64,000 bases of DNA, taken from the NCBI GenBank assembly GCA_027079305.1, contig JALWVU010000073.1:1-64000 (forward strand). The letters are read 5' to 3'. Each line of letters opens with the position of its first letter. The first letter of the stretch is position 1. This document shows positions 15,056-64,000 of the stretch, piece after piece. A program made the translations under genes and the position numbers. The notes under the pieces are model-generated. The model was not told the DNA's origin. It searched no databases and worked only from the letters and a program-made list of their open reading frames with translations. The DNA is from Aquificaceae bacterium. Its GTDB lineage: Bacteria > Aquificota > Aquificia > Aquificales > Aquificaceae.

Positions 15056-15990
15056 TCTCTTAGTCTCCTCAGAGCCTTCAGAGCCACTTTCGCGGCGAGC
15101 CTGATGCTCCCCCTGTAGTTCCCGAGGAACTCATCTTTTGGTCTGCTGGCTATCACAGGACACACAGCTCCCGCCCTGTGTCCGAGGGGAAGCATAAGGT
15201 GTAGCAGGAAGCTCGCCTCCATCTCCATGTTCTCCGTCTTGAGATCCCCCAAGGAGAGCCCTGATATGTGAAGATCGAGATCGGGGATCGTGGGAGGGAC
15301 CCTCGAGACGGACCTCCCCTGGTTGGCGAAGAAGCCCGAGTTGGAGACGGTTATCCCTCTCACATAAGGCGCCCCAATATCCTTTGCGGACTCTTCGAGG
15401 GCCCTCACCACTTCGGGGTGAGCTTTTGAGGCATAGGGGAAGATCTTCCTCTTGAACCTGGAGTTCTGACCGATAAGGTTCTCTATAAGTTCCTTGGCTT
15501 TATTCTCGAGGAGCTCACAGTTCTCGTCGGGGTATGGAGCCTCGTAGAAGAGTCCCGTGTTGTCGAGCCCGAGGGCGTATTCGGTGATAACGAGCGTTCC
15601 AAGATCTCTGTCCTTCTGGAGTCCTCCCGAGGTTCCGACCCTGATGATGTTTATAGTTGGAATACTTTTCTTTCTCTCCATCCTCTCGAAGTCTACCTCG
15701 TGTAGAGCCACGATCTCATTCAGGACTATCTCGAGGGAGGGTGTTCCCATCCCAGAGGTGGTTATGGAGATCCTCTGGCCCCAGTCGGTGTATCCTGTGA
15801 TCGTCCTGAGGCCTCTGTGCTCCACTCTGAGCTCTATATCCTTTAAGAACTCCTCCGCTATGAAGTCTACCCTCTCGGGATCTCCTACTATTAGTAAGTC
15901 CTCCGAAAGCTCTCCCGGAGCGAGCCTGAGGTGGTAGACCTTTCCGTTCACGAGGGGAAGGTCGGGCGGATGGAAGGGCTGTTCCCTCAT
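15046..15990 (-). CDS. udp: Nucleoside phosphorylase (uridine/purine phosphorylase family)
   Basis: NP-I family phosphorylase of 314 residues, cleaving a nucleoside with phosphate to base and (deoxy)ribose-1-phosphate. Visible motifs are LIVGDPERVDFIAEEF, the phosphate-binding IIRVGTSGGLQKDRDLGTLVIT, NSGFFANQ, and the ribose-binding ENMEMEASFLLHL. The pairing with deoC supports uridine/thymidine-type use, but base specificity is uncertain. The start codon at 15988-15990 lies only 23 nt from the divergent def gene. Confidence 0.88.
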   Translation of the reverse strand: MREQPFHPPDLPLVNGKVYHLRLAPGELSEDLLIVGDPERVDFIAEEFLKDIELRVEHRGLRTITGYTDWGQRISITTSGMGTPSLEIVLNEIVALHEVDFERMERKKSIPTINIIRVGTSGGLQKDRDLGTLVITEYALGLDNTGLFYEAPYPDENCELLENKAKELIENLIGQNSRFKRKIFPYASKAHPEVVRALEESAKDIGAPYVRGITVSNSGFFANQGRSVSRVPPTIPDLDLHISGLSLGDLKTENMEMEASFLLHLMLPLGHRAGAVCPVIASRPKDEFLGNYRGSIRLAAKVALKALRRLREWT

Positions 15991-56099: not shown

Positions 56100-56260
56100 T
56101 ATGTCCTCACTTTCAACTCCACCCGGCACATTATATTCGCATTCTTAACACCATAATAAAGACCATCCAATCCGATTTCAACTCCACCCGGCACCGTTAA
56201 GGTATTTGCCATTATCAATGGTAAACTCATATCCAATCCGATTTCAACTCCACCCGGCAC
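56100..56260 (-). CRISPR. Three-repeat CRISPR array with one degenerate terminal repeat
   Basis: Two identical 30-nt repeats occupy 56165-56194 and 56231-56260. A third copy at 56100-56129 keeps only the 19 bases TTTCAACTCCACCCGGCAC (56111-56129) and diverges over its other 11. Spacers are 56130-56164 (35 nt) and 56195-56230 (36 nt). Read on the minus strand the repeat contains GGAGTTGAAA, like the GTTGAAA ends of many thermophile repeats, and the damaged copy is then the last, trailer-end one, so I infer leftward transcription from a leader right of 56261. The adjacent cas6 and cmr genes are the likely partners. Confidence 0.88.
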
Positions 56261-56539
56261 CCCAAACGAGCGGTTTAATAATATAAGCTACTTCAACAAC
56301 TTATACAACTCCCTGTATCCGCAAATGAAGTTAATTTCCGAAAACTGCCGGTCCTGCAAAAGACCTTAAAATTTGGCCCATTTAAAACCTTGTGTATCAA
56401 CCGGTCCAGAAAGGTGTCATCAAAGCATCAAGACATCAAGGCATTTTGATGCACTGTAAAACTCTCTTACCTATTCCCTTGCCAAGGAGCCGGCAGGCCC
56501 TTTCGTCCTGCTGTAAAATTTTATACCATAGATTCCGTG
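56261..56539. promoter_or_regulatory. Non-coding gap between CRISPR array and cas operon (leader and promoter region)
   Basis: This A/T-rich stretch, on present evidence, holds the leader of the leftward array and the promoter of the rightward calp-cas operon. Visible elements are a cluster of three CATCAA motifs (listed separately), a small inverted repeat GCAGG (56493-56497)/CCTGC (56507-56511), and a -10-like TATACC at 56522-56527, about 12 nt before the first gene. No gene is supported in it. Confidence 0.45.
56418..56452. repeat. Three CATCAA motifs at 8-nt period plus an inverted copy
   Basis: CATCAA begins at 56418, 56426 and 56434, an exact 8-nt spacing, and TTGATG follows at 56446-56451. 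GCATCAA (56425-56431) and TTGATGC (56446-56452) form a perfect inverted repeat. The block lies about 90-120 nt before the first gene of the calp-cas operon and about 160 nt from the array, where an operator or leader element would be expected. Confidence 0.5.
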
Positions 56540-56968
56540 ATGAGGGGGTTAAAAGAGATATACAGACAGATAATAGAGGAGCAGGAATACAAGTTTTTGG
56601 GGTTCTTTGATCATGAAAGTCTAAAGTTCCTTGAAGAGCTTCTTGATACCGATCTGGGTATAAGGGGGAGGAAAGAAGTCGGCAAAGAGCCGAGAAAGGG
56701 AAGGCCTTTCATAGGCAGGAAAAGGGGAAATTCCCTTGAGGTGTGTTTTCTTACAAAGGAAAAAAGAAAGTACAGGATTAGTCTTGATCCATGTGAGAAG
56801 AAAGATACCTCATGCTCATGGATGGAAAGTGTATCTTATGTCTTTTACGACAGGAAGAGGGGTTACGGGAGGTTTTTATTAAAGGATTTCGGAGAATTGA
56901 ATTATACCCTGTGCGGAAGGTGTGAGGATTTGGAAGTTATTGACAAACTTAGGGTCTTTGAAGTATGA
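56540..56968 (+). CDS. Unknown protein heading the calp-cas operon (142 aa)
   Basis: Not recognised. It is a charged, soluble protein: helical N-terminus (MRGLKEIYRQIIEEQEYKFLGFFDHESLKFLEELLDTDLG), a strongly basic linker (RGRKEVGKEPRKGRPFIGRKRG) and a beta-rich C-terminal half with five cysteines (VCFL, DPCEKK, TSCSW and LCGRC). Its stop overlaps the start of the sigma-factor gene (ATGA), so the two should be co-translated. Start ATG 56540 is taken over GTG 56537. It may be an accessory regulator of the sigma module, an effector, or a nucleic-acid-binding protein judged by the basic linker; none of these is shown. Confidence 0.75.
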   Translation: MRGLKEIYRQIIEEQEYKFLGFFDHESLKFLEELLDTDLGIRGRKEVGKEPRKGRPFIGRKRGNSLEVCFLTKEKRKYRISLDPCEKKDTSCSWMESVSYVFYDRKRGYGRFLLKDFGELNYTLCGRCEDLEVIDKLRVFEV

Positions 56969-57642
56969 AGGATGCGCTTATAGCTCTTGCTGAGGGCAGG
57001 GAAGACATACAATTTAGGACCTTCTTACTCAAAGAAATACAGTCTGTTATCCGTGAGAATGAATTAGAGGAGTTACTAAAAAGGCGCTTGGGGGATGATT
57101 ACGCTGAAGAGGTTCTTGCGGATTTCAGACTAAGGGTTTTCCTCATGGTGAGATCTGGCAAGCTGGAAGAGAAAGAGTTTATAAGCAGGTATTATGTGAG
57201 GAAGATGATTCGTTCATGTGCGATAGACATCCTGAACGGGGACTCCAAACTCAACTTTGTGAGCGTAGAAGGTCTCAACTACGAAAACGATGAAGGAGAC
57301 GTTGTGAGCTTTGAGGAAAATATAGCGGTAGAAGAGGATAAAGACCTGCAAATAAGCGCAGAAGATCTCTTTGATGAAATCGTGAGCAAGCTATCGGAAA
57401 AGGAAAGGAAGGTTATGTGCTACTACCTGTATAAAAGCCTATACTCAAAGGAGATCCCCTTAGAGGGCATTTCCAAAGCCAACCTCTATAAAATTTGGGA
57501 AAGACTAAGAAAGAAGATAGCCAGTGAAATCTCTTATATGCCCTCCGAGGAAGAGTTCAGGGAGTTTGCGGAAAGATTCTTGTCAGAAGTTTGCGGCAAG
57601 GAGGGTTATTCAATTAAGGAGCGTGGAAAAGATGGGAAGTAA
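56965..57642 (+). CDS. calpS: CalpS-like ECF-type sigma factor
   Basis: 225 residues. A region-2-like segment (about 40-92) reads GDDYAEEVLADFRLRVFLMVRSGK followed by SRYYVRKMIRSCAIDIL, matching the ECF pattern of acidic start, L/F-rich helix and a final A-I-D-x-L helix. A region-4-like segment (about 133-188) has DLFDEIVSKLSEKERKVMCYYLYK, KEI, then ISKANLYKIWERLRKKI, a helix-turn-helix. Followed by CalpT- and CalpL-like genes it matches the sigma factor released by the type III CRISPR protease system of Sulfurihydrogenibium. Divergence from standard ECF factors is high; the assignment draws on context as much as sequence. Confidence 0.8.
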   Translation: MKDALIALAEGREDIQFRTFLLKEIQSVIRENELEELLKRRLGDDYAEEVLADFRLRVFLMVRSGKLEEKEFISRYYVRKMIRSCAIDILNGDSKLNFVSVEGLNYENDEGDVVSFEENIAVEEDKDLQISAEDLFDEIVSKLSEKERKVMCYYLYKSLYSKEIPLEGISKANLYKIWERLRKKIASEISYMPSEEEFREFAERFLSEVCGKEGYSIKERGKDGK

Positions 57643-58423
57643 ACTGCAGGAGATCCTATACAGGAACTACGAAGAGAGCCTCGGAGAAGAACTTATAGAG
57701 GTTAAAGAAAAAGAAAGGAAACCCTCAAGAGAGGGGCAAGTAAGGCTCTTCTTCATGACACCTCCTGAGTTTGTTCTCGTTCTCAAAAAGGAGGGAGACT
57801 TAAACGTCATAGTTCCACTTACAAGTTACCTTCAGCTTGCTATCACAGATAAATATCCACCGCTCATAAAGTGGAGAGGTTTGAATTTGGTTCCTCTACC
57901 CTTCTGGGTTTACGTAAATGAAAAACTCCTCCAAAAATACTCGGTTCCCGTTTTCAAGATCAGAAAACTTGATCCAATAAGAGAATATGTCAAATCCGCA
58001 AGAACGAAAGGAATAGGTGAGTGGAGGGAGAAGTTCATCAGAAAAACCGCAGAGAGGTTTAGGGATCTGAACCTTTCCAGCATTATCTACGAAGTTGTGC
58101 GTGAAGAGGAAGGAAAATCAGGTGTAGTGGTCAAATTCCCGACCGCACTAAAAGAAGAGATAGAAAGGAGAAGAGAGCTTGCCCTCGCCGCACAACCTGC
58201 AAGCTATATGAGAGGGAGTAATTGGCTCGGTGTTGTGGAAGAAGATAAGTTGATACTTTACCTGCCCGAAGATTACCTTGGTAAAAAAGTAGCCATCTCC
58301 TTAGGTGATAAGGTCATATACGAAGGGGTAGGCAAACAAAAAATAATTATTGAGGATATTCCAAAAGTTTCCTCTTACACCTTCTTGGAGGAGGATCTAA
58401 ATGTTCAGGTTCTCGGCGATTGA
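57632..58423 (+). CDS. calpT: CalpT-like anti-sigma factor / CalpL substrate
   Basis: 263 residues. No strong family motif by eye; identified by position between sigma-like and Lon-SAVED genes, with the length of the known CalpT. The N-terminal domain (about 36-110: VRLFFMTPPEFVLVLKKEGDLNVIVPL, PPLIKWRGLNLVPLPFWVYV) is beta-rich, then a helical segment (about 112-183) and an Ala-rich stretch ELALAAQPASYM (about 182-193), followed by a small C-terminal beta domain (about 198-263). In the studied system CalpT holds the sigma factor until cut. The ATG at 57632 overlaps the sigma stop by 11 nt; the longer open frame upstream is in the sigma gene. Confidence 0.76.
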   Translation: MGSKLQEILYRNYEESLGEELIEVKEKERKPSREGQVRLFFMTPPEFVLVLKKEGDLNVIVPLTSYLQLAITDKYPPLIKWRGLNLVPLPFWVYVNEKLLQKYSVPVFKIRKLDPIREYVKSARTKGIGEWREKFIRKTAERFRDLNLSSIIYEVVREEEGKSGVVVKFPTALKEEIERRRELALAAQPASYMRGSNWLGVVEEDKLILYLPEDYLGKKVAISLGDKVIYEGVGKQKIIIEDIPKVSSYTFLEEDLNVQVLGD

Positions 58424-59867
58424 ACCGGAGCACTTTAAAGGTCTTCTCAGTAGCGGTAAACTGGATGAGGACTTGGACGAGATTTTTGAGCAGTTCTGGG
58501 AGCTGAGTTCTTTTAGTCAATTTGAGTTGATCAAATATGTAAAGGAAAAGGGTATCAATCCAAGCCTTGGTGTTCTTTCCTCGGTATTTGACATTTCAGA
58601 AGAGGAAGCCAAAAAATTTCTAAGAAACCCTTACAGGGAGTTTTACGTTCCCGTAGTTGGGCAAGAGAGTAAACTGGTAAGAGGTCTCTCTGTAAAGGAT
58701 CTTGATAGCATCATTACCAATCACGACCACCTTAAAAGCTCCATGGAGGTTATAAGGGACTTTCTCGGCAAAGGGTTTGCCCTCTTTTTTGATGAGGAGT
58801 TTAGCGGTGAAAGTTATATGCTTCCTGCGGTTGTCAGCTTATACGTTGAAAACCCACCTAAGGATGCGGTCTTTACAGGAAAGATAGACAAAGAAGGTAA
58901 CATCTATGAGGTGAACGGTATACCCAAAAAGAGGGCTTTGGCAAAAAAACACAACCTTAGACTGATTGAACCCTCATACCTTGACAATGTCCAAACCCTT
59001 AAAAACTGGCTTGATGCGGACAGATACGACGTTCCCCTTTTTATAACCAAAAGCAAAGAAAATTACGAAGGAGAACTGAAGAGCCTTTACTCTCACCTTA
59101 CCTTTGATAATCCGGAAAGGACTTTGGAACTCCTTGAGGTTCTAAACGGCATACCAAAAGAGAAACTTGTTATACCTACAGGTCAGATACCTCCAGAGGA
59201 ATCAGCATGGGAGAGCATAGTTAGAGAGTTCTATAAGAGAATCAAAGAGATAGAAAAGGCTTTGGGGGGAAGGGAAGTTTGGCATATGGCTATAAACGGG
59301 GCAAGTGCCCTCGCCTTTTCCTTGGGGGCGGTATTCGGAAGCCAGAAACCTTTTGTCTTTTATCATTTCCAGAATAAAGCTTACAAACCTATAAAGGTAG
59401 ATAATGTAAGGATCCTGAAGGAAAGACTTAAAGAATACAAGCACATAGACTACACCGTTGAGGGAGATGGTGACGAACTTGCAGTAGCCTTTGCCATAGC
59501 CCACCACGAGTTGCAGGCAAGCGTTAAAGAGTTCATGAAGGAAATAAACCCTACAATCCTTGTGATACGCTACAAAAAAGCAGGTCATGTGCCCGTTGAA
59601 GATATCTTTGAGGTGGCAAGAGAGAGTGCAAGCCTTATACAGGATATAAGGAGTAAAAGGGATTACAAGAGCTTTCACTTCTTCTTTTCCACACCTGTGG
59701 CTATCGCCTTTATGGTAGGTGTAGCTTTCGGATACTACAACCAAGGCTATGTCTACAACCTCCAAAGGGGGCAAGGTGAAAGCTACGTAAGGGTAATAAG
59801 CTTTGAAACTATAAGAAAAATCAGAGAGGAAGGGGATGAGGTTTCTGCTGAAGCTCAGAAACGTTGA
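58401..59867 (+). CDS. calpL: CalpL-like Lon-SAVED protease, cyclic-nucleotide activated
   Basis: 488 residues. The Lon-type protease part (about 75-205) contains EEFSGESYMLPAVVSLYVENP, with Ser138 as candidate nucleophile, and AVFTGKIDKEGNIYEVNGIPKKRALAKKHNLRLIEP, with Lys176 or Lys177 as the dyad lysine; this parallels the Lon order S...TGEI...GG-x-K. The C-terminal SAVED domain (about 290-470) shows WHMAINGASALAFSLGAVFG, ELAVAFAIAHHEL, ILVIRYKKAG and FFFSTPVAIAFMVGVAFGYYNQG. No AAA+ ATPase domain and no clear N-terminal transmembrane helix are present. Predicted to sense cyclic oligoadenylate (cA4 in the relative) and then cut the CalpT-like protein. Overlaps both neighbours (23 and 32 nt). 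Confidence 0.88.
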   Translation: MFRFSAIEPEHFKGLLSSGKLDEDLDEIFEQFWELSSFSQFELIKYVKEKGINPSLGVLSSVFDISEEEAKKFLRNPYREFYVPVVGQESKLVRGLSVKDLDSIITNHDHLKSSMEVIRDFLGKGFALFFDEEFSGESYMLPAVVSLYVENPPKDAVFTGKIDKEGNIYEVNGIPKKRALAKKHNLRLIEPSYLDNVQTLKNWLDADRYDVPLFITKSKENYEGELKSLYSHLTFDNPERTLELLEVLNGIPKEKLVIPTGQIPPEESAWESIVREFYKRIKEIEKALGGREVWHMAINGASALAFSLGAVFGSQKPFVFYHFQNKAYKPIKVDNVRILKERLKEYKHIDYTVEGDGDELAVAFAIAHHELQASVKEFMKEINPTILVIRYKKAGHVPVEDIFEVARESASLIQDIRSKRDYKSFHFFFSTPVAIAFMVGVAFGYYNQGYVYNLQRGQGESYVRVISFETIRKIREEGDEVSAEAQKR

Positions 59868-60552
59868 CGGCTCGCATGTTAGAGTAGGGATAGACTACAG
59901 GAGAAGATTTATATCTCTTCTAAAGAGAATATTAAGAGAGGAATACGAAAAAAAGAGGACAAGACCTTACGCCTTTGCGGTTTACTTCGGCAGGGAGGCT
60001 AAGATAGGAAAGGATTTCGTGGAAGGTGTGAGAAATATAAACTTCAGATTCTCAACGGGAGACAGCCTTTTGGCAGTTAAGTTCTACAACGGGGCGCTAA
60101 CCTTAAAAAAGCAAAGAGCTTCCCACAGCATAGGTGAGGGGAAATTTATTGTGGGATGGATAAAACAGGAAAGGGAAAAGGAACTTACGGGGGTGTTCAA
60201 AACTCTATCACCTGTAATTGTAGAGCGTATAGGTTTTTCTTCCCGAAAGCCCACGGATAGGTATGTAATCCCTTCCGAAGAGGGGTTTGAGGAGTCCATG
60301 CTTGAAAATATTTTAAGGAGATACAGGAACGTGAAGGGGAAGGACTTAAAAGTAAAAAAGTTCGCTTTTGAAGGTCTAAAAATAAAGGAAGAGTTCATTA
60401 AACACTACGGCGGGTATCTGAGGGGATTTATAGGAAAGTTCAAAATAGTGTCAGATTCCGAGGAACTACTGCGTTTTATATATCAGTATGGTCTCGGTCT
60501 CAGGACCGGCCAAGGCTTCGGATATCTGGAGGTGGAGGATGGAGAAGCTTGA
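59836..60552 (+). CDS. cas6: CRISPR-associated endoribonuclease Cas6
   Basis: 238 residues of two ferredoxin-like folds. The C-terminal glycine-rich loop LGLRTGQGFGYLEVE is the diagnostic Cas6 motif. N-terminal MRFLLKLRNVDGSHVRVGIDYRRRFISLLKRIL fits the family start. Cas6 cuts the pre-crRNA in the repeats. The catalytic residue (often His or Lys) cannot be fixed by eye; H117-like SHSIGEGKF near the middle is a candidate region. The start overlaps the protease gene by 32 nt and its end overlaps cmr1 by 14 nt. Confidence 0.88.
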   Translation: MRFLLKLRNVDGSHVRVGIDYRRRFISLLKRILREEYEKKRTRPYAFAVYFGREAKIGKDFVEGVRNINFRFSTGDSLLAVKFYNGALTLKKQRASHSIGEGKFIVGWIKQEREKELTGVFKTLSPVIVERIGFSSRKPTDRYVIPSEEGFEESMLENILRRYRNVKGKDLKVKKFAFEGLKIKEEFIKHYGGYLRGFIGKFKIVSDSEELLRFIYQYGLGLRTGQGFGYLEVEDGEA

Positions 60553-61540
60553 GTATGAGATTGAGTTTATAACACCTGCGTTTATCGGAGGAGCGGATCA
60601 GCAGGCGGAACTGAGACCCGCAAGTTTTGTAGGACTGCTGAGGTGGTGGTGGAGGGCTTTAAAGGGATGGAGGAAACCAGAAGACTTGTTAAATGAGGAA
60701 AGTGAAATATTCGGAGGTGCGGGGGACAAGGGAAAGGCGGGTAAGGTTTGGTTAAAAATAAAAGATAAAGATATCGAAGTTGGCAAAGATATAAAGGGAG
60801 AAAACGGTCTTGAGTGGGGATATAACAAGCGTCTTGGTAGGCTTGATGGTAAGCACGCAGGAATAGGATATTTGTTCTTCTCGGTGTTACTTCAAAGGAG
60901 GGACTATTTAAAACCTGAAGGTAGGTTTGTGCTTGAGCTTGTAGGTAAAAAAGAATATCTTGCGTATGCAACAGCAAGCCTCTGGGCTTTGTCAATCTTC
61001 GGTGGCGTAGGTACGAGGGCGAGGAGAGGTGGCGGAAATATCCGAGTTGTAAACTCTCAAGAAAGTTTTATGGATATGGTTCCTAAAGAACCTTTCTCCG
61101 ATTGGTTAAGGTCTCAGTATGAAAAAGCGCTAAGCTTGGTTCAAGGAAAGGGTTTGATAAAAAGCGTATATGTCAGCAAGCGAGCGTTTAACAACTGGGT
61201 GGAAGCTCTAAACGACATAGGAAAAGCCTTTATGGAGTATAGAACCAACAATAAGCACCGCATATTTGATATGGGAGCTTTCGGACTTCCCATAAGACAC
61301 AGGGGAAACATTTTTCTAACACCTCAAAATCACAATAGGAGAGCTTCACCTCTAATATTCAGGACTATAAGGGTAAGAAATAGATACAGATGGATGGTCG
61401 TTTGGTTAGACGGACCATTTTTGCCCAGAGGTGAGAAGCTGAGATTTAAAAGAAAGCTGGGTAACGTAAACCTAAAACCTATAGAAGAATTCTTGAGCAC
61501 TTTGGATGCTCAGAAAATTGCCTTTAATCAAGGAGGTTAA
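60539..61540 (+). CDS. cmr1: Type III-B RAMP protein Cmr1
   Basis: 333 residues. The N-terminal EYEIEFITPAFIGGADQQAELRPASFVGLLRWWWRALKGW is the Cmr1 hallmark (LRWWWR). GYLFFSVLLQRRDYLKPEGRFVLELVG, ASLWALSIFGGVGTRARRGGGNIRV is the glycine-rich RAMP loop of the family. Cmr1 caps the 3' side of the Cmr effector and contacts target RNA. The ATG at 60539 is chosen because it starts the conserved region and lies inside the end of cas6. Confidence 0.94.
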   Translation: MEKLEYEIEFITPAFIGGADQQAELRPASFVGLLRWWWRALKGWRKPEDLLNEESEIFGGAGDKGKAGKVWLKIKDKDIEVGKDIKGENGLEWGYNKRLGRLDGKHAGIGYLFFSVLLQRRDYLKPEGRFVLELVGKKEYLAYATASLWALSIFGGVGTRARRGGGNIRVVNSQESFMDMVPKEPFSDWLRSQYEKALSLVQGKGLIKSVYVSKRAFNNWVEALNDIGKAFMEYRTNNKHRIFDMGAFGLPIRHRGNIFLTPQNHNRRASPLIFRTIRVRNRYRWMVVWLDGPFLPRGEKLRFKRKLGNVNLKPIEEFLSTLDAQKIAFNQGG

Positions 61541-61543
61541 TCT

Positions 61544-63289
61544 ATGAACCTGCTAATTTTCACCTTCTCACCTGTTCAGGGGTTCATACAAAAATCAAGG
61601 AAACTCAGAGATCTCTTTAGTTCAAGCTATATGCTCTCATACATAACTCAGGAGCTTGTTAAGTATGCAGAGAACCTCGGAGCTTCAATAATATATCCAG
61701 TGATTTCCGAAGATTCCTCAGACAAACTTACCGCCAACTATCCCAACAGGTTCGTAGCTAAGGTAGAAAAAGATATATGCGGTGAGTTGGCAAAGAGGTT
61801 TGAGGAAATCTGGGAAGAAATATATACCTTTGTAGCGAACGAGCTCGGTCTCGAAGGGAAACTAAGGGAGCAGTTTTTCCTTCATACAAAACACTACTTC
61901 AAACACTTTTGCCACGCTCAGCCTTTGGGTGAGGATTACGGAGAAATTTACGACCTTGCAGAGAGGTATCTTGGGGCTAAGAAGAGCTTTAGACCGTATT
62001 ACGGACTTGAGGATGGCTATAGGTATACTTCCGAGGACGGAGAAGAGAAATATCCTAACGGCTGTTATCTGTGCGGTGAGCTTCCCGCTCTGGCGGTGGA
62101 TTGGAAGGAGTTTCTGAAAAAGCTTCCGAAGAAATACAGATATGCCCTTGGAGATAAACCTCTTTGTGGTGTCTGCACTACCAAAAAGATGTTTCCTTTT
62201 TATCTTAAGAAAGCTAAAAAGTATAAGGTTCCGACCTTTCCCAGCACGAAGGACCTCGCTTGGGCAAATCTTAAGGAGAATCTAAAAGGTGCTCCTAACG
62301 CGGGTGAGATCCTTTATTTAGTAAACACTATAGAGGAAAACTTTGATAGGGAAGACATAAGAGAAATAAACGCAGACTTTCTTGATCCTGAAGATGTAAA
62401 GGATATGAAGAAAGAGACAAATCTGGAGGACAAAGAATTTTTTGAAAAACTCCTAATAGAGCTGGAAAAGCTTTACGAAGATTTTGGTTTCAAAAAGCCC
62501 AAAAATTCCTATTTCGCCATCCTCATGGCGGACGGGGACAATATGGGAAAGTGGCTCGGTAAAGACGACTCTTTGAGAGGTATGAAGTTAACAGAGAAAT
62601 TCCACAGTGAATTTTCGCAGGCGGTTTCAAGCTTTGCCAAAAATGTAAAGGAATACGAAGATAACCTGTGGCTCAGCGTAGTTTATGCGGGTGGGGACGA
62701 TGTGCTTGCGGTTATGCATCCTTCAAAGGCTCTGGGGTTTGCGGACTCTATAAGGAGGAAATACAGTGAGTTTATAACGAGCAAAATCAAAGGTCTTGCA
62801 AGCGAACCTACCATGAGTGCAGGAATCGTGATAGCCCACGAGAAGGAGAACTTAACTTTTGTCCTTGATGAAGTTAGGAAAGCGGAAAAGCTCGCAAAAG
62901 ATAGTGGTAGGAACAGGGTATGCATAAGTGTCATTAAAAGATCGGGTGCTCCGAGGTCTGTGGTCTTGAAATGGAACGAACTTGAAATTGTAAATAGACT
63001 TGTGGAGCTTTTCCCTAAAGAAAAACTTTCCTCTACTCTCGCCTACGCCTTGGGACAAGAGCTTGAAGGTTTGGACCGCAGTGAGGAGCTATTTTTTCCG
63101 GTTGTAGCGGTTATCAGGAGAACGATCCGCAGGAAGAGCACGCTTTCGGAAGGGGAACTAAAGGATCTTATGGATTTGATTGAGCGCTTTATATCTCAAA
63201 GGGATGATTTCGGAGATCTGCTAAACATCCTTTATATAGCCCGCTTCCTGAGTCAGAGGGAGGAAACAAATGAAACTGTATCTGCTTGA
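61544..63289 (+). CDS. cmr2: Cas10/Cmr2 cyclic-oligoadenylate synthase lacking the HD domain
   Basis: 581 residues. It begins directly with the first Palm-like domain (LLIFTFSPVQGFIQKSRKLRDLFSSSYM), so the N-terminal HD nuclease of typical Cas10 is absent. A zinc site is formed by CYLC (174-177) and CGVC (208-211). The second Palm has YFAILMADGDNMGKWLG and the intact catalytic GGDD at residues 383-386 (VVYAGGDDVLAVM). Prediction: no DNase but active synthesis of cyclic oligoadenylate when target RNA is bound, supplying the signal for the Lon-SAVED protease. Confidence 0.95.
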   Translation: MNLLIFTFSPVQGFIQKSRKLRDLFSSSYMLSYITQELVKYAENLGASIIYPVISEDSSDKLTANYPNRFVAKVEKDICGELAKRFEEIWEEIYTFVANELGLEGKLREQFFLHTKHYFKHFCHAQPLGEDYGEIYDLAERYLGAKKSFRPYYGLEDGYRYTSEDGEEKYPNGCYLCGELPALAVDWKEFLKKLPKKYRYALGDKPLCGVCTTKKMFPFYLKKAKKYKVPTFPSTKDLAWANLKENLKGAPNAGEILYLVNTIEENFDREDIREINADFLDPEDVKDMKKETNLEDKEFFEKLLIELEKLYEDFGFKKPKNSYFAILMADGDNMGKWLGKDDSLRGMKLTEKFHSEFSQAVSSFAKNVKEYEDNLWLSVVYAGGDDVLAVMHPSKALGFADSIRRKYSEFITSKIKGLASEPTMSAGIVIAHEKENLTFVLDEVRKAEKLAKDSGRNRVCISVIKRSGAPRSVVLKWNELEIVNRLVELFPKEKLSSTLAYALGQELEGLDRSEELFFPVVAVIRRTIRRKSTLSEGELKDLMDLIERFISQRDDFGDLLNILYIARFLSQREETNETVSA

Positions 63290-64000
63290 ACCTTACGATG
63301 TTCTGAGCTTCGGAGGGCTTAAGAACTTTTCCGCAGGTGAGAGCCACATTCAAAAAAGCTCCTTCCCCCCGCCGATAATGAGGTTCTTTCCGTATTTTAG
63401 GAAAGTCTATTCGATTCTACTGGTAAAAGGTAATGAAGCCTACCTTCCTGCCCCTGCGGACTGCCTTGTGCCGAGAAAGGGAGAAGAAGGGGATCCGATA
63501 ATAGCACCTCTCAAGTTTCCGCCCGTTCTGGAGGAGGAAAAACCTTACGAGCCTGCAAAGGGGTTTGTTTCTGTAAGAGATTTCGTAGAAAGGTATGCCA
63601 ACGGAAAGGGGAAATTTGCTCTTAAAGAACTGAGTGAGTTCTTAAACACGGAAATGAGGGTTGGGGTAAAGCTGAGCGTTTCCTCAAGAACCTCTGAGGA
63701 GTCAATGCTCTACTCTCAAGACTTTCTGAGGTTTAAGGAAGATACGTTTTTGGGAATACTCGCCTCGGAAGCGGACAGACTAAAAAGCCTTAACAAGATG
63801 GGGGGAGAGGGAAAACTTGCAAAGTTAAAGGGAAAGAAGGACTTGGCGGAGTTCTTTAAGAAGAAGCTGACATTGAAGAAAGGAAATATCTATAAGCTCT
63901 ATCTTCTTTCCCACGCCTTCGTTGAGGGAGGAATTGAAAAGGGGAAAGTGATCAAGATTGAAGGTAAAGAGTTTAAGGTTCTGTGGCTACATAGCGCTGG
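63270..64000 (+). CDS. cmr3: Type III-B RAMP protein Cmr3, cut by window end
   Basis: The frame opens MKLYLLEPYDVLSFGGLKNF, then SAGESHIQKSSFPPPIMRFF, the Cmr3 N-terminal pattern (E-P-x-D-V-L near the start), and stays open to the last base, about 243 codons. Cmr3 binds the crRNA 5' tag and Cmr2. ATG 63270 has GGGAGG upstream and overlaps the cmr2 stop by 20 nt. The remaining cmr4-6 genes should lie beyond the window. Confidence 0.9.
   Translation, partial: MKLYLLEPYDVLSFGGLKNFSAGESHIQKSSFPPPIMRFFPYFRKVYSILLVKGNEAYLPAPADCLVPRKGEEGDPIIAPLKFPPVLEEEKPYEPAKGFVSVRDFVERYANGKGKFALKELSEFLNTEMRVGVKLSVSSRTSEESMLYSQDFLRFKEDTFLGILASEADRLKSLNKMGGEGKLAKLKGKKDLAEFFKKKLTLKKGNIYKLYLLSHAFVEGGIEKGKVIKIEGKEFKVLWLHSA

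Follow-up and report, generated by a model that had tools for sequence, protein, structure and literature searches.

The Calp module within a type III-B CRISPR operon of an Aquificaceae bacterium appears to consist of four genes. We favour a reading, built on conservation and profile comparisons, in which its first gene, X, encodes a MazF-like protein, probably zinc-stabilised, that pairs with the sigma factor CalpS (S) and the anti-sigma factor CalpT (T) and would be released as a co-effector. Calp is already known as an example of CRISPR immunity that works through transcription, and X, rather than the order of the operon or a missing helix in the protease CalpL (L), is the real lead at this locus.

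A Calp module precedes the cmr genes of a type III-B operon

The window analysed is a stretch of 64,000 nucleotides of contig JALWVU010000073.1. All of the open reading frames named in the initial annotation at 56540-63289 were present, with the X-S-T-L genes followed by cas6-cmr1-cas10/cmr2-cmr3 (Table 1). The open reading frames and domain searches confirmed that the genes for an ECF-like sigma factor, a linker protein and a Lon-SAVED protein lie directly ahead of cas6-cmr1-cmr2-cmr3. Downstream of cmr3, the contig encodes cmr4-6, a CARF-TM effector and then type I cas genes with cas1, such that cmr1-6 and a Cas10 carrying GGDD identify the system as type III. Domain searches gave no match to an HD domain in the window cas10/cmr2. 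The chain of gene overlaps that had been described largely held (X/S, 4 nt as ATGA; T/L, 23 nt; L/cas6, 32 nt; cas6/cmr1, 14 nt), but the S/T overlap is not 11 nt: it is 8 nt if T starts at the ATG at 57635 and 29 nt with the GTG at 57614. A 3-nt gap separates cmr1 from cas10, while cas10 and cmr3 overlap by 20 nt.

Table 1. Features of the CRISPR array and Calp-Cmr operon in the window.
Feature	Position	Strand	Remarks
CRISPR array	56109..56261	-	3 repeats, spacing 65-66; handle ..GTTGAAA; divergent from operon
CRISPR leader-like region, 267 nt	56262..56528	.	blastn; operon begins at its far edge
Gene X, 142 aa	56540..56968	+	probable zinc-binding MazF/PemK-like protein; conserved fourth gene of Calp loci
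CalpS-like ECF-type sigma factor S, 225 aa	56965..57642	+	
CalpT-like anti-sigma factor T, 262 aa	57635..58423	+	MazF-like N-terminal part without catalytic Arg
CalpT linker ELALAA, residues 181-186	58175..58192	+	CalpL predicted to cut here, leaving an ssrA-like C-degron
CalpL, Lon-SAVED protease, 488 aa	58401..59867	+	catalytic S138/K177; SAVED at ~residues 265-470
cas6	59836..60552	+	
cmr1	60539..61540	+	longer start at 60488
cas10/cmr2, 581 aa	61544..63289	+	cyclase motif GGDD present
cmr3	63270..64000	+	runs on to contig position 64199

The orientation of the array was inferred from the GTTGAAA repeat end and the position of the leader. Several further copies of the leader-like region, 85-87% identical and each adjoining repeats, were found in the genome by blastn. 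The array region gave no match to phages. Inspection upstream of X revealed no shared CalpS promoter motif; the region in question here is the CRISPR leader.

The homology to the Sulfurihydrogenibium CalpS/T/L set that had been proposed was supported, placing a Calp module inside the III-B operon. Another Aquificaceae MAG encodes a CalpL that is 96% identical to that of the window. One genome encodes a CalpL 100% identical to the solved protein 7qda over the 203 residues compared, and we take this genome to be Sulfurihydrogenibium sp. YO3AOP1, the source of 7qda; its gene order is X-S-T-L-cmr1-cas10-cmr3-cmr4-cmr5-cmr6.

Gene X is encoded directly ahead of the sigma gene

Among 136 Aquificota genomes, profile searches identified X homologues in 54, and CalpL-like sequences are present in 62. 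All 55 Aquificota loci whose upstream sequence is long enough have X immediately ahead of the sigma gene (55/55). Where 450 nt or more precede S, X is found no more than ~60 nt upstream of it (49/49; at one of these loci the longest open reading frames overlap by 61 nt), and six further loci agree (6/6). The homologues at L066, L067, L068 and L070 had been missed by too strict a search. Of the 37 CalpL loci that extend far enough upstream, 34 show the full X-S-T-L order. L215, from a MAG that is 62% complete, encodes CalpL without S, T or X. The association of X with S persisted whether CalpL was of the standard or the Crn2-fused class, whether or not cmr genes were nearby, and where S-T-L was divergent from cas10. 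X was not found in viral contigs or plasmids. Two copies of X are present at L051, L053, L081 and L133. Thus, the extra first gene noticed in the initial annotation is real, but it is no local oddity, since it precedes S at every suitable locus examined.

X is a probable distant relative of MazF/PemK

X had no direct match to Pfam, NCBIfam or PDB families, and neither X nor its homologues matched PF02452. When X was compared with 20 Aquificota PemK proteins by hhalign, the alignment scored 32.3 (P=3.6e-5, probability 71.5%, 79 columns); none of 400 column shuffles reached this score (best 15.1), and 14 unrelated families scored at most 21.3. In this comparison, which at the level of residues is a profile alignment, R55-P56 of X falls on MazF R25-P26 and T72 falls on T48. 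In MazF, R25 and T48 are reported to be catalytic, and some MazFs carry Ser in place of the Thr (PMC7354611); R25/P26 are reported to be important (PMC8634880). The near-invariant residues of X are R55, P56, T/S72, C85, C92, C125 and C128: Arg and Pro are present in 57/57 sequences, Thr or Ser occupies the T72 position in 57/57, and the four cysteines, a probable zinc site, are present in 56-57 of 57. X is accordingly best described as a probable distant MazF/PemK relative, and we call it MazF-like rather than a MazF because the similarity is profile-profile only and PF02452 does not match.

No similarity between X and T was detectable by hhalign, and an AlphaFold model of X made from two sequences had a pLDDT of 38. 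PDLC01080 ("C3a162"), a PADLOC model of unknown function, detects the X homologue in the 7qda-matching genome at E=2e-60 and, weakly, one divergent X at 2e-7; it does not detect the window X.

CalpL and CalpT retain features of the published module, beside a weakly sigma-like CalpS

The window CalpL is a fusion of Lon and SAVED, as had been proposed. Its SAVED domain matched Pfam PF18145 (E=3e-25) and an NCBIfam model (E=9e-31), the whole protein matched PADLOC Lon-SAVED models at E-values down to 2e-159, and comparison with solved SsCalpL (7qda/8b0r) gave E=4e-30 with residues 37-457 aligned. S138 and K177 align with the Lon Ser-Lys dyad S152/K193 of SsCalpL, and among the more than 50 CalpL aligned both are kept in every sequence that has residues at these positions. 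H345, R361, K364 and H392 (SsCalpL numbering), which have been tested as ring-nuclease residues of CalpL (PMC11417357), are kept in nearly all standard-class CalpL; the window equivalents H322, R337, K340 and H369 are all conserved. CalpL was not found in viral contigs, plasmids or phages.

Four or five genomes encode a second, ~560-aa class of CalpL, accompanied by an X-S-T set of its own wherever the contig is long enough. The C-terminal domain of the long CalpL at L126 and L129 matches AcrIII-1 (6scf), STIV B116 and the Csx1-Crn2 fusion (8y7f). In the five aligned sequences of this class (5/5), H345 is replaced by Gln and K364 by Pro, and H392 is deleted, as if the ring-nuclease activity of SAVED had been handed to the fused Crn2/AcrIII-1-type domain; a sixth long sequence, L053, is a different, T-L-joined open reading frame.

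S belongs to the same gene family as the sigma gene of the 7qda-matching genome. It matched the NCBIfam sigma70-ECF model TIGR02937 at E=1.8e-6 (27.7 bits versus a curated cut-off of 42.9) and the PADLOC "HTH" model at E=9e-86, and in hhalign comparisons with the phylum's alternative sigma factors it outscored 300 shuffles. The AlphaFold model of S had a pLDDT of 65, and its Foldseek matches were non-significant (E>=0.8), the leading ones being mostly sigma factors.

T matched PADLOC CRISPR-T (E=4e-27) and Unk_02 (E=5e-78). Its hhalign score against PemK was 20, which 1 of 400 shuffles reached, and was weaker than that of X against PemK; T keeps the Thr/Ser of the MazF catalytic pair and has lost the Arg. 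CalpT23 has been reported to be MazF-like (PMC9704534). The conserved Ala-rich linker noticed in the then unclassified protein corresponds to ELALAA at T residues 181-186, where the cut is predicted to fall after A185 or A186. Of 50 T proteins, 26 have LAA in this linker, and none has it elsewhere. The window linker would leave 76 C-terminal residues, compared with a predicted 75 in the Sulfurihydrogenibium protein, which agrees with the 10-kDa fragment described in published work. Read by hand in the host sequence, where ARAGORN called no tmRNA gene, the tmRNA tag ends in EVALAA. Because the CalpT linker resembles this tag, a cut in it would yield an ssrA-like degron.

A model for the Calp response and the contribution of X

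Since CalpL conserves the residues on which cA4 sensing and proteolysis depend, this locus is best read as responding to infection through transcription; to this extent the earlier proposal that infection is answered by re-programming transcription stands. As Cas10 has GGDD, cA4 can in principle be made. We envisage that recognition of phage RNA would lead the Cmr complex to make cA4, as the GGDD motif and knowledge of the family suggest, and that cA4 would assemble CalpL via SAVED and switch on the Ser138-Lys177 Lon protease, as in published homologues with the same conserved residues. CalpL would then cut CalpT within ELALAA, so that the new C-terminus would be an LAA resembling ssrA, and host ClpXP-type proteases would remove the N-terminal CalpT piece, a clearance already proposed in published Calp work, such that CalpS would be freed. 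X probably binds the CalpS/CalpT portion of the complex and, after release, would act as an RNase or RNA-binding co-effector.

How X contributes could be read in several ways. X might lack RNase activity and serve the sigma factor in a structural or regulatory capacity, as a chaperone, a co-anti-sigma factor or a co-activator that binds RNA polymerase, which we regard as quite possible, if somewhat short of an even chance. The X gene invariably sits immediately ahead of S, in many cases overlapping it by ATGA, and it is missing along with S at L042 and L223, where T-L pairs are intact; furthermore, published CalpT is itself a MazF-like fold serving as an anti-sigma factor (PMC9704534, PMC11417357). 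However, the equivalents of the MazF catalytic pair are kept in every X (57/57), while CalpT lost the Arg. This same retention, the distant MazF match and the adjoining MazF-like CalpT without Arg would also suit an X that is a MazF-type RNase toxin in its own right, with CalpT as both antitoxin and anti-sigma factor and a CalpL cut freeing toxin and sigma factor. The strict co-conservation of X with the Calp genes is in keeping with such a toxin, a scenario that we consider rather unlikely. In the co-variation of distances among X, S, T and L, partial correlations change between subsets and were given no weight. Finally, X starts at the CRISPR leader edge in this genome, as would a leader-proximal CRISPR gene hitch-hiking in the operon and unrelated to Calp function, but X tracks S across differing Cas contexts, and every intact X lies beside S except where a contig ends. 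Such hitch-hiking was already disfavoured and is very improbable.

For the MazF-like partner of S and T that we favour, an RNase-type effector held by CalpT is plausibly the form that X takes. The most specific version, in which a zinc-stabilised MazF-family RNase is kept inactive by a MazF-like CalpT that is itself catalytically inactive, and RNase and sigma factor are freed together by a single CalpL cut, is an unlikely elaboration. If X were indeed an RNase held by CalpT, the early idea of CalpT as a toxin and the anti-sigma model that came later would be reconciled. In vitro, published Calp reactions proceed without X, which counts against X as a component; since X precedes every sigma gene examined, the 7qda-matching locus included, the published reconstitutions may lack a component.

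Comparison with known systems

With MazF/PemK toxins (PF02452), X shares the aligned R-P and T/S positions, and CalpT is MazF-like as well. X differs from these toxins in falling below Pfam detection, in its four conserved Cys and in its N-terminal helical stretch. The best solved-structure match of the window CalpL is AcrIII-2, a viral SAVED ring nuclease (9r8s; PMC12751052; E=1e-47), through its SAVED domain; unlike the window CalpL, AcrIII-2 is a stand-alone viral protein without Lon.

The closest comparison is with the Calp system of Sulfurihydrogenibium sp. YO3AOP1 (7qda, 8b0r; PMC11417357, PMC12751052), which has the same families, order and III-B context. Its CalpL shares the Lon dyad and cA4 ring-nuclease residues with the window CalpL, to which it is ~26% identical, and its CalpT linker reads HVAST where that of the window reads LALAA. 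Two features put forward as novelties do not survive this comparison: the 7qda-matching genome has an operon that likewise places S-T-L in this order ahead of its cmr genes, and the N-terminus of its CalpL is equally non-hydrophobic, so neither the order nor the lack of an N-terminal membrane helix is new. Indeed, hydropathy revealed a strongly hydrophobic helix at the N-terminus of none of the standard CalpL examined. We found no mention of X in the Calp literature searched, which did not include the first descriptions of 2023 and 2024. The Sulfurihydrogenibium system was published as tripartite, yet X is also present at its locus.

Gene content around the Calp operon

Gene X is duplicated in tandem ahead of the sigma gene in four loci of a single genus (L051, L053, L081 and L133). 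Locus L042 carries CalpT, cas6 and a CalpL with 96% identity to that of the window and has neither X nor CalpS, with unrelated genes upstream; this absence could reflect loss, insertion or mis-assembly. The second Calp locus of genome G123 (L223) reads T-L-cas10, without S or X.

The CARF-transmembrane protein encoded after cmr6 is probably a second cOA effector of the window's Calp/cmr operon. CARF-transmembrane genes adjoin Calp in other genomes too.

Several more copies of the CRISPR leader-like region occur in the genome (85-87% identity), every one adjoining repeats. The copy at L003 ~15216-15400 has a small ribbon-helix-helix-like ORF on its far side.

Coordinates of the features discussed
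Feature	Position	Remark
CRISPR leader-like region	window 56262-56528	~267 nt
CARF-transmembrane protein	L003:6264-7214 (contig C73 66264-67214)	directly 3' of cmr6
Second-class CalpL	L123:2293-3975	
Second-class CalpL	L124:336-2018	
Second-class CalpL	L126:7952-9643	
Second-class CalpL	L129:7729-9426	
Second-class CalpL	L130:1655-3358	

A CalpL class with a possible ring-nuclease fusion

A second class of CalpL, whose genes are preceded by X-S-T wherever the contig extends far enough, combines Lon, a degenerate SAVED domain and a C-terminal PF08960 domain (Crn2/AcrIII-1-type ring nuclease); this last domain was demonstrated in L126 and L129. All five members have lost the ring-nuclease residues of SAVED. 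This class is possibly a self-limiting protease-ring nuclease fusion. The ring-nuclease papers that we searched contained no description of it.
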